From: Candidatus Methylacidiphilales bacterium
GTDB taxonomy: Bacteria; Verrucomicrobiota; Verrucomicrobiia; Methylacidiphilales; JAAUTS01
Length of the DNA: 38,264 bases
Assembly: GCA_028713655.1 (NCBI GenBank)
Contig: JAQTNW010000003.1
Span: forward strand, 1 to 38,264
Direction: 5' to 3'
The notes under the pieces were generated by a model. That model was not told the DNA's origin and ran no database searches. It was given only the letters and a program-made list of their open reading frames with translations. Position 1 is the stretch's first letter. The number at the start of each line of letters is the position of its first letter. The position numbers were made by a program, and so were the translations under genes. This document shows positions 8,825-17,003 of the stretch, piece after piece.

Positions 8825-9883
8825 ATGCCGACGCAGGAACAGATTCTGGAATCGCTCAAGCAGGTCAAGTATCCCGGGTTCAGCCGGGATATTGTATCCT
8901 TCGGGCTGGTCAAACAAATCGCCGTCGATGGCGGTGCGGTCCAGGTGTGGATGGAAGTCACGACGAGCGACCATCAAGTCCCCATCGTCATCCAGCAGGA
9001 TTCCATTGCAGCTTTGAAGTCATTGCAGGGAGTCAAGTCGGTCGATGTGCAGGTCAAGACGGCAGCTCCGTTGAAGGCGGTCATGGGCGCGGGCGGCGCG
9101 CCGGTGCAACAAGGCATCCCCGGCGTCCGGCATATTCTTGCGGTGGCGAGCGGCAAGGGCGGGGTCGGAAAATCGACGGTGGCAGCCAACCTCGCTGCGG
9201 CGCTTTCCAAACAGGGATTGAAGGTAGGCCTTTGCGACTGCGATCTGTACGGCCCGAGCATCGGAATGATGTTTGGAACCCTGGAACGTCCGAAGGTGAC
9301 CGAGGATGAAAAAATCCATCCGATTGAATCGCGCGGGTTGAGATTGATGAGCATGAGTTTCCTTGTGGAGGAAGAGGCGCCGGTGATTTTGCGGGGCCCG
9401 ATGGTCACCCGCTACACCCAACAATTTTTGCGCAACGTGAATTGGGGCGATTTGGACGTGCTGGTGCTGGATTTGCCGCCGGGCACGGGCGACATTCAAT
9501 TGACCATCGTGCAAACAGTGGCGTTGACGGGAGCGCTGGTGGTGACCACGCCTCAGGAAGTGGCGTTGATCGACGCGCGCAAGGCGGTGAAGATGTTCGA
9601 AAGGGTGAACGTCCCGATTCTGGGCATTGTGGAAAACATGAGTTACTTTATCTGTCCCGACAACGGGAGACGTTACGATATCTTTGGCACGGGGGGAGGG
9701 AAGCGCGAGGCGGGAAAGCTTGGGGTGCCGTTGCTGGCGGAAGTTCCGCTGGAAATGACGACGCGCGAGTCCGGGGATGCGGGGTTGCCAGTGGTCTTGG
9801 CGAAGCCTGAAACGGCGGCAGCGAAGGAGTTTATTCAGATGGCCGCAAAAATTAAATCGATTCTTGCGGCAACGGTGGTATAA
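8825..9883 (+). CDS. mrp: Mrp/ApbC/NBP35 family iron-sulfur carrier ATPase
   Basis: A 352-residue protein. Residues 1-90 form the MIP18/FeS-assembly-like domain (PTQEQILESLKQVKYPGFSRDIVSFGLVK), followed by the deviant Walker A VASGKGGVGKST, switch region CDLYGPSIGMM, Walker B-like VLVLDLPPGTGD and VENMSYFICPDNGRRYDIFG. The family binds and transfers 4Fe-4S clusters to apoproteins. The usual CxxC near the C terminus is CPDN here, so the second cysteine is missing; such variants occur in some lineages. I use the ATG at 8825 because family members begin about ten residues before the QILE helix; an in-frame GTG at 8759 is less likely. It appears to be a single gene. Confidence 0.9.
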   Translation: MPTQEQILESLKQVKYPGFSRDIVSFGLVKQIAVDGGAVQVWMEVTTSDHQVPIVIQQDSIAALKSLQGVKSVDVQVKTAAPLKAVMGAGGAPVQQGIPGVRHILAVASGKGGVGKSTVAANLAAALSKQGLKVGLCDCDLYGPSIGMMFGTLERPKVTEDEKIHPIESRGLRLMSMSFLVEEEAPVILRGPMVTRYTQQFLRNVNWGDLDVLVLDLPPGTGDIQLTIVQTVALTGALVVTTPQEVALIDARKAVKMFERVNVPILGIVENMSYFICPDNGRRYDIFGTGGGKREAGKLGVPLLAEVPLEMTTRESGDAGLPVVLAKPETAAAKEFIQMAAKIKSILAATVV

Positions 9884-10009
9884 GAAGTCATTGATGGAAA
9901 AGGACTTGCCCCCGCTGAATTGCGAGTTTGATTTAGTTGTCTAAAGCTTTAGCGGGATATACGATTGACAGAAACAGGGATTTTCGTGTGAATGAGGATG
10001 GTTACGTTT

Positions 10010-10219
10010 ATGGCTTCTGGCTCTACTGATACGGAACAATATTTTAAGAATTCGGCCTTGTACCGCGAATTTCTCGCAGAGCGCGAAGAAATCCTGAAGC
10101 ACAAGTGGATTGAAAGCGAGAAGGCCGGACACGATATTGGGTTTGAAAAAGCGTTGCTGGACTGGATAGTCAAGCATCGCTCCAGTTGGCGGAACGACAG
10201 GCAGCAGCCTCACGTTTGA
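10010..10219 (+). CDS. Small conserved protein, function unknown
   Basis: A 69-residue protein (YFKNSALYREFLAEREEILK, HKWIESEKAGHDIGFEKALL, DWIVKHRSSW). The regular helical pattern with conserved W, G and the IESEKAGxDIGFExALLDW core looks like a genuine small cytoplasmic family, seen as an unannotated short protein in many bacteria as far as I recall. The ATG at 10010 has AGGATGG eight bases upstream; an ATG at 9992 would add six residues without a ribosome site. It precedes the pyr leader by about 25 bases and could be co-transcribed, but its relation to pyrimidine synthesis is unknown. Confidence 0.65.
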   Translation: MASGSTDTEQYFKNSALYREFLAEREEILKHKWIESEKAGHDIGFEKALLDWIVKHRSSWRNDRQQPHV

Positions 10220-10245
10220 GCTTGGTTAGGTTGGGAGCCTTTAAT

Positions 10246-10263
10246 ATGGCCCGGAGAGGCCAT
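10246..10263 (+). promoter_or_regulatory. Candidate PyrR-binding RNA hairpin upstream of pyrR
   Basis: ATGGCC/GGCCAT form a 6-bp stem around the hexaloop CGGAGA, which fits the CNGNGA loop of the PyrR recognition hairpin; the core CCGGAGAGGC fits the published CCNGNGAGGY consensus with compensating stem pairs. The hairpin ends three bases before the GGGAG ribosome site of pyrR. No following terminator is seen, so any control is more likely at translation than by attenuation. Confidence 0.65.
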
Positions 10264-10274
10264 GAAGGGAGAAG

Positions 10275-10814
10275 TTGAAAAAGAAAGTTATTTTGGATGC
10301 GGCGGCCTTGGACCGCTCGCTGAGCCGTCTGGCTCATGAAATTCTGGAGCGCAGCCCCGAAAACGCGCCTCTCGGTTACATTGGAATTCACACCCGTGGC
10401 ATTCACCTGGCTGAAAGGCTGGCCAGGCTGACGAAAAAAATTGATCCCGCGCGCCCGACCCTGCCGCTGGGGCAACTGGACATTTCCTTTCACCGGGATG
10501 ACATGGGCCGCAACCTCGCGGCGCCCAAAATCACCGACATCCCGTTCAACATCGACAAGGAACTGATCATTCTGGTTGATGACGTGCTGTGCAGCGGACG
10601 CACAATCCGGGCGGCGCTCAACGCGCTGGTGGACCATGGCCGGGCGCAGGCGGTGCGCCTGGCGGTCCTGGTGGACCGGGGGCACCGCCAACTGCCGATC
10701 CGCGCGGATTTCGTGGGCAAAAACATCCCGACCGCGCCCGGCGAAAATGTCGTGGTGCATTTGAAAGAGGTGGACGGCGTGGATGAAGTCGTGGTGGAAG
10801 GAGGCGAGTCATGA
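10275..10814 (+). CDS. pyrR: PyrR, bifunctional pyr operon regulator / uracil phosphoribosyltransferase
   Basis: A 179-residue type I phosphoribosyltransferase. The PRPP loop is [20 protein letters not shown] ([10 protein letters not shown] at 101-110), with [15 protein letters not shown] near the N terminus and [12 protein letters not shown] as the flexible loop, all typical of PyrR. PyrR binds uridine nucleotides and a hairpin in pyr mRNA to shut down synthesis; it also can convert uracil to UMP. The start is a TTG at 10275 with GGGAG a few bases upstream; no in-frame ATG precedes the conserved [12 protein letters not shown]. Its stop overlaps the pyrB ATG (ATGA), so pyrR, pyrB and pyrC are one coupled operon, headed by the hairpin at 10246. 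Confidence 0.93.
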
Positions 10815-11755
10815 AGTGGTCGCGAAAAGACCTGCTGGAGATCCGCAGCCTGAGCAAGGAAGAGATACTGCTCTTGCTCGACACGGCGGCCTCGTTCAAG
10901 GAAATTCTGCAGCGGCCTATCAAGAAGGTGCCGTCGTTGCGGGGCAAGACGGTGGTGAATTTGTTCATCGAGCCCAGCACGCGCACGCGGGTTTCGTTTG
11001 AGCTGGCGGCCCAGCGCCTGAGCGCGGACGTGGTCAGCATTTCAAAGGAAAGCAGCAGTTTCAAAAAAGGCGAGACGTTGAAGGACACGGCGTTGAATCT
11101 TCAGGCGCTCAATGCCGACTTCATCATCATCCGGCACAGCGCGGCGGGGGCGGCGCAATTTTTGGCGGACCGCTTGAAGACCTCGGTCATCAACGCGGGC
11201 GACGGCGCGCATGAGCATCCGACGCAGGCGCTGCTCGACACGTTCACGATCCGGGAAAAACTGGGCGATGTGGCGGGGAAACATGTGTTGATCGTGGGCG
11301 ATATTTTATACAGCCGCGTGGCGCGTTCGAACATCTGGGCGCTGACGAAGCTTGGCGCGAAGGTAACGCTTGTCGGCCCGGCCACGCTTCTGCCGGATAT
11401 TTTCAGGCAGATGGGCGTGGAAGTCGCCCATGACCTGGACGGGGTTTTGCCCGGCGCGGACGTGATCAATCTGCTGCGCATCCAGCATGAGCGGCAGCGC
11501 ACGACCTTGTTTCCGTCCCTCGGCGAATATATTGCGGTGTATGGCTTGACCCAGGCGCGGTTCAAGCGTTGCAAGCCGGGGATCCTGATCATGCATCCGG
11601 GGCCGATGAACCGCGGGGTTGAAATCGACAGCGATCTGGCAGACGGCCCGAACTCGGTGGTGCTGGAGCAGGTGACCAACGGGTTGGCGGTTCGCATGGC
11701 GGTCCTTTATCTGCTGAGCGGCGGGTCCTTTTCCGAAACCGAGGGAATGAAATGA
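10811..11755 (+). CDS. pyrB: Aspartate carbamoyltransferase catalytic subunit
   Basis: A 314-residue enzyme that condenses carbamoyl phosphate and aspartate to N-carbamoylaspartate, the first committed step of pyrimidine synthesis. The carbamoyl phosphate site is [11 protein letters not shown] (STRTR at 56-60), the mobile loop SSSFKKGET, then HPTQALLD (136-143) and the aspartate-side [11 protein letters not shown]. Length and motifs are those of the catalytic chain used without a PyrI regulatory subunit (classes found with pyrC), and no pyrI is adjacent. It overlaps pyrR by four bases upstream and pyrC by four bases downstream. Confidence 0.96.
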
Positions 11756-15448: not shown

Positions 15449-15521
15449 GCCCACGTAGCTCAGTTGGTAGAGCACGTCCTTGGTAAGGACGAGGTCGACG
15501 GTTCAATCCCGTTCGTGGGCT
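15449..15521 (+). tRNA. tRNA-Thr (GGT anticodon)
   Basis: Acceptor GCCCACG/CGTGGGC, D arm GCTCAGTTGGTAGAGC, anticodon stem CGTCC/GGACG with loop TTGGTAA (anticodon GGT), T arm GACGG/CCGTT with TTCAATC. CCA is not encoded. It lies 131 bases before tuf, the usual position of a tRNA cluster in front of tufB. Confidence 0.96.
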
Positions 15522-16930: not shown

Positions 16931-17003
16931 AGGGCAGTAGCTCAATTGGTAGAGTAGCGGTCTCCAAAACCGTCGGTTGGGGGTTCGATTCCCTCCTGCC
17001 CTG
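16931..17003 (+). tRNA. tRNA-Trp (CCA anticodon)
   Basis: Acceptor AGGGCAG/CTGCCCT with discriminator G, D arm GCTCAATTGGTAGAGT, anticodon loop CTCCAAA with anticodon CCA between GCGGT/ACCGT, T arm GGGGG/TTCCC-type with TTCGATT. It precedes secE, the usual bacterial arrangement. Confidence 0.96.

Follow-up and report, generated by a model that had tools for sequence, protein, structure and literature searches.

Most work on regulation by PyrR has dealt with Firmicutes and mycobacteria. In the pyr leader of Mycobacterium smegmatis, PyrR reportedly represses translation, a result attributed to Fields and Switzer in 2007. The Thermus Z05 pyr leader has a PyrR site together with a leader peptide and an attenuator. 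Here we describe a pyr locus of the Verrucomicrobiota that lies in a stretch of 38,264 nucleotides, and we refer to that whole stretch as the window. The features of this locus, all on the plus strand, are as follows.

10238–10268, +, PyrR-type RNA element of 31 nt, recognized from a sub-threshold RF00515 alignment, our models R1 and R2, and covariation
10238–10241, +, 5' strand of the lower stem, CCUU, pairing with AAGG at 10265–10268 and invariant across the aligned elements
10242–10244, +, 5' bulge UAA, read from the sequence and found in every aligned element
10245–10251, +, 5' strand of the upper stem, UAUGGCC, read from the sequence as part of the covarying stem
10252–10257, +, hexaloop CGGAGA (CNGNGA), read from the sequence
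10258–10264, +, 3' strand of the upper stem, GGCCAUG, read from the sequence as part of the covarying stem
10265–10271, +, pyrR Shine-Dalgarno sequence AAGGGAG, whose AAGG doubles as the 3' strand of the lower stem
10275–10814, +, pyrR with a TTG start, 179 aa, NF003549 at 209.9 bits (cut-off 138)
10811–11755, +, pyrB, ATGA overlap with pyrR, NF002032 at 407.7 bits
11752–13041, +, pyrC, ATGA overlap with pyrB, TIGR00857 at 423.2 bits
13084–14247, +, carA, the gene after pyrC, TIGR01368 at 505.3 bits

The first-pass annotation had placed a hairpin in front of pyrR in an operon encoding PyrR, and the particulars it gave were accurate. A 6-bp stem is formed by AUGGCC (10246–10251) and GGCCAU (10258–10263) around the loop, the core motif reads CCGGAGAGGC at 10251–10260, GGGAG (10267–10271) starts three bases past this stem with GAA in between, and the reading frame at 10275–10814 matches the PyrR family model. 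The hairpin is real, and what had been missed was its extent: the CCUU/AAGG lower stem and the UAA bulge. The upper stem of the complete element has 7 bp. Alignment to the Rfam PyrR model showed that the lower stem pairs the ribosome site directly. At the gathering threshold, Rfam gave no PyrR match; below it, RF00515 aligned full-length to 10234–10292 with 27.1 bits versus a cut-off of 54. This model is 115 nt long and includes the attenuator terminator, and the score falls below the cut-off because that terminator is absent from this leader. The window element is the PyrR binding-loop part of RF00515 and is not filed as a member of RF00515: it has the CNGNGA hexaloop, the covarying stem, the 5' bulge, and the lower stem, and elements of this kind lie in pyr-gene leaders of PyrR-encoding genomes. 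A family-wide Rfam search gave sub-threshold matches only, some of them spurious.

The Shine-Dalgarno core AAGG sits 6 nt before the TTG start of pyrR at 10275. The closest natural solved relative of the encoded protein is the PyrR of structure 1non (E 2.5e-49). The overlaps between pyrR and pyrB and between pyrB and pyrC are 4 nt each, and pyrB has a strong Shine-Dalgarno sequence of its own, AAGGAGG, ahead of 10811. It is likely that carA belongs to the same operon as these three genes. Immediately 5' of the element is a 75-aa open reading frame (9992–10219, +) with a weak DUF4032 match; throughout the order and class, homologues with 58–86% identity lie 5' of pyrR, also in genomes that have no RNA element. 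Two tRNA genes lie 3' of the pyr operon at 15449–15521 and 16931–17003.

In the window, the core motif CCNGNGAGG occurred 7 times versus 6.07 expected, and a search with the core motif alone was rejected as evidence because the motif is at chance frequency. The sole perfect match with all 11 of 11 possible pairs in the window is this element. When model R1 was run on the 3.29-Mb genome of origin, it found one strong site (46.4 bits, E 4.7e-8; next 18.4 bits). Model R2, trained without the family of the window, found the same single strong site at 40 bits with an E value of 5.9e-6 (next 19.9 bits). No convincing other target was seen in this genome with either model, the next-best matches being at 18–20 bits, and a search for the pyrF family there gave no useful match. 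Among 62 genomes of the order there were 25 strong matches, one per genome and all immediately 5' of pyrR, and no strong match in the order genomes lacking pyrR; a weak 25-bit match in the PyrR-less genome G016 is the sole exception in the order. In the phylum, 200 of 388 genomes encode a PyrR-like protein and the element was found in only 10, always beside pyrR, in a scan that scored few candidates per genome. We also fetched 51 element-free pyrR loci and searched them directly, and none had a match above 14 bits.

We searched for PyrR through the order and read the regions upstream of pyrR. The pattern CCTTTAA-N7-CNGNGA-N7-AAGG was present at the start of pyrR at all fetched loci of families f1, f4, and f9 (L001, L023–L044) and was not found at the fetched loci of families f3, f5, and f8 (L045–L051). 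In a first set of 23 distinct elements, there were 55 doubly changed cells versus 22.1 in shuffles, and the covariation score was 0.480 versus 0.161 for shuffled alignments. Results with a class set of 25 elements were similar, with 49 compensated cells versus 17.5 (none of 500 shuffles was as high) and a score of 0.432 versus 0.135 shuffled and at most 0.113 in slid controls. In the class, six of the seven upper-stem pairs have double changes, element length is kept, and RNAalifold recovers the two-stem structure from the 25 aligned elements. The search pattern partly required the letters of the lower stem, including the invariant CCUU, and of the loop, and required none of the upper stem; since the lower-stem and loop letters never vary, the upper stem is the source of the covariation evidence, and the lower stem may owe its conservation simply to its role as a Shine-Dalgarno sequence. 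In two elements that are otherwise intact (L028:2019–2052, minus strand, and L030:1186–1219), A.G replaces the C-G pair closing the hexaloop. The comparison that the first-pass annotation had proposed as a check thus gave 25 of 25 strong order matches directly before pyrR and a covarying upper stem. A chance inverted repeat, which would fit the frequency of the core motif alone, is refuted by these comparative data, namely the covariation, the genome-wide R2 match, and the position conserved in 25 genomes of the order. We give it almost no credence, and judging from these data and the single perfect match in the window, the complete element is not a chance occurrence.

Folding of the 35-nt stretch around the element gave –14.2 kcal/mol (z –2.25), and the upper stem forms with P=0.90 when folded within 151 nt. 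For the leader of 89 nt, the minimum free energy structure is a different fold from the element; this whole-leader folding showed no excess stability (z –0.21), which makes the 89-nt result uninformative in either direction. The lower stem contributes –2.3 kcal/mol in the window and –0.2 to –2.3 kcal/mol in relatives. Such a weak lower stem is expected if PyrR supplies the stability, and it would suit a clamp that closes only once the protein is bound.

The mechanism we infer comprises PyrR binding, control by UMP and PRPP, a translational block, and coupling of pyrB and pyrC. At high UMP or UTP levels, nucleotide-bound PyrR would grip the hexaloop, the upper stem, and the bulge. By stabilizing the short lower stem, this grip would tie up AAGG, the core of the Shine-Dalgarno sequence; ribosome loading would be prevented and pyrR would go untranslated. 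Expression of pyrB and pyrC, joined through the ATGA overlaps, would partly drop along with it. At low UMP and high PRPP, PyrR would release and the weak lower stem would open. Repression by PyrR that is mediated by UMP and opposed by PRPP is established in attenuation systems (PMC6296669). The ATGA overlaps point to partial coupling of pyrB and pyrC to pyrR. This coupling may be incomplete given the separate Shine-Dalgarno sequence of pyrB, and with that strong site and the TTG start of pyrR, these two genes need not be fully repressed. With these provisions, we consider it very probable that UMP-bound PyrR clamps the pyrR Shine-Dalgarno sequence and represses translation of pyrR-pyrB-pyrC. 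The translational autoregulation proposed in the first-pass annotation is supported on this sequence evidence.

The claim that no terminator is visible was borne out by a scan of 9850–10450, where no terminator-like site was found. The window does not have the Bacillus-type arrangement of an antiterminator and terminator 3' of the site; it has the mycobacterial type, in which the site overlaps the first ribosome-binding site and a terminator is absent. Because the leader has no terminator and the element overlaps the Shine-Dalgarno sequence, translational repression is the simplest reading. PyrR might instead bind and exert mainly transcriptional control, with untranslated pyrR mRNA being ended, as in attenuators, through the action of Rho or at a terminator that is hidden. 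Relatives in the same phylum lend some weight to this idea, since some of them have the element ahead of a terminator-like hairpin with a T-run (L012 and L017, more weakly L060 and L063). We nevertheless think it unlikely for the window, where the scanned region has no such site, the element lies directly on the pyrR Shine-Dalgarno sequence, and there is no leader open reading frame between the element and pyrR.

The arrangement in these four relatives is as follows.

L012:2891–3010, leader-peptide layout
L017:1375–1490, leader-peptide layout
L060:2170–2328, minus strand, leader-peptide layout
L063:1838–1990, leader-peptide layout

At each of these loci, a leader open reading frame starts exactly 5 nt past AAGG, encodes 25–37 residues, spans the terminator-like sequence, and at its end overlaps the start of pyrR. 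This layout suggests translation-coupled attenuation, and PyrR attenuation probably exists in verrucomicrobial relatives. In 31 genomes of the order and class besides the window, the AAGG strand is 2–8 nt before a start codon, which is pyrR's own in the order and most of the class and otherwise that of a short leader open reading frame. Similar short leader frames occur in Omnitrophota (L006, L016, L018, L019) and at L007. The Omnitrophota variant is one base longer (CCTTTTAA...AAAGG; L006:2847, L016:2051, L018:39, L019:2763) and has its short leader frame 5–8 nt after AAAGG, upstream of pyrR.

We also compared the PyrR proteins, using Bacillus subtilis numbering with the reference sequence checked against 1a3c. 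At positions 15, 18, 19, 22, 27, 140, 141, 146, 152, 153, and 155, the window PyrR reads RSRHRHRRKNP versus RTRHRHRRKNP in B. subtilis. By its family match and the DD of the PRPP loop it is a PyrR, and it retains the RNA-contact surface, H22, R146, K152, and their neighbours. In B. subtilis, RNA-binding mutagenesis reportedly implicated residues of this surface, these three included, in RNA contact. Among the columns with the sharpest separation between element-bearing and element-free PyrRs are N153, H22, P155, K152, R15, and R146. Five columns (H22, H140, K152, N153, P155) were chosen on loci from a search of named genomes, mostly of other phyla plus the verrucomicrobial L012 and L017. When scored on the remaining loci of the phylum, 4–5 of the five residues were present in 22 of 22 element-bearing loci versus 0–2 in all 57 others. 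The combination of H22, R/K146, and K/R152 was likewise complete in 22/22 phylum loci with the element versus 0/57 without, and almost every PyrR of either group retains the PRPP loop. In a tree built without these residue regions, the element and residue traits both change 7 times. The element-residue association has 7 independent pairs on the best tree and 1 on well-supported branches, which leaves too few supported pairs for a sign test, and with this single pair common descent may still account for it. Many verrucomicrobial proteins called PyrR (L045–L051, L064–L114) keep the PRPP loop and are without H22, K152, N153, and the element; they are probably enzymes only.

These results bear on whether PyrR is involved at all. 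Stems that mask a Shine-Dalgarno sequence are common and PyrR binding is predicted here, so the element could be a general structure tuning translation or stability, or the site of another factor. We regard this as very improbable since conservation of the CNGNGA loop and of the UAA bulge goes far beyond the needs of a generic stem, and the element is restricted to pyrR loci and tracks the PyrR surface residues. Returning to PyrR as the ligand, a broader proposal is that the hairpin in Verrucomicrobiota is a movable Shine-Dalgarno clamp with two modes, acting on the pyrR site in translational repression or on that of a 25–37-codon leader peptide in coupled attenuation, and that PyrRs losing the RNA-contact residues lost the element. 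Taken jointly, we give these ideas about an even chance. If they hold, the residue code separates regulatory from enzyme-only PyrRs.

The assignment to a Gram-negative, non-Firmicute lineage also stands, as the order includes pmoA-bearing methanotrophs. Family f7, which belongs to the order of the window, includes thirteen genomes with genes of the pmoA family, a finding that fits methanotrophic Methylacidiphilales of the Verrucomicrobiota. In this family, 11 of 13 genomes (G016–G024, G027, G028) had no PyrR match, and the other two (G025, G026) had fragmentary weak matches only.

A translational PyrR mechanism is already known, and the novelty is its probable occurrence in Verrucomicrobiota, where the same covariation-backed RNA element, in its translational form, is found at pyrR in several Gram-negative families. 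The Rfam model misses these elements because a terminator is built into it. The match between element and residues offers a sequence test for telling regulators from probably enzyme-only proteins among those annotated as PyrR. The extensions of most interest are, in our view, the layout with a leader peptide and the residue code that would mark regulatory PyrRs.

The window element shares with the RF00515 attenuators of Bacillus, Lactococcus, and Streptococcus its location next to pyr genes and its four parts, from the lower stem and 5' bulge to the upper stem and CNGNGA hexaloop; it differs in scoring below the gathering cut-off, in having no antiterminator or terminator, and in masking a Shine-Dalgarno sequence. 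The Thermus Z05 leader resembles the layout of L012, L017, L060, and L063, with the element on the leader-peptide Shine-Dalgarno sequence, whereas the window has no leader peptide and its element is on pyrR itself. The pyrR leader of Microbacterium nanhaiense (L013, Actinomycetota) carries the same element, its AAGG lying 9 nt ahead of the ATG of pyrR, although that host is Gram-positive. The M. smegmatis pyr leader is from another phylum, and regulation in the window is predicted from sequence; nonetheless, both operons begin with pyrR, have a PyrR-type hairpin at their first ribosome site, and are without an attenuator.
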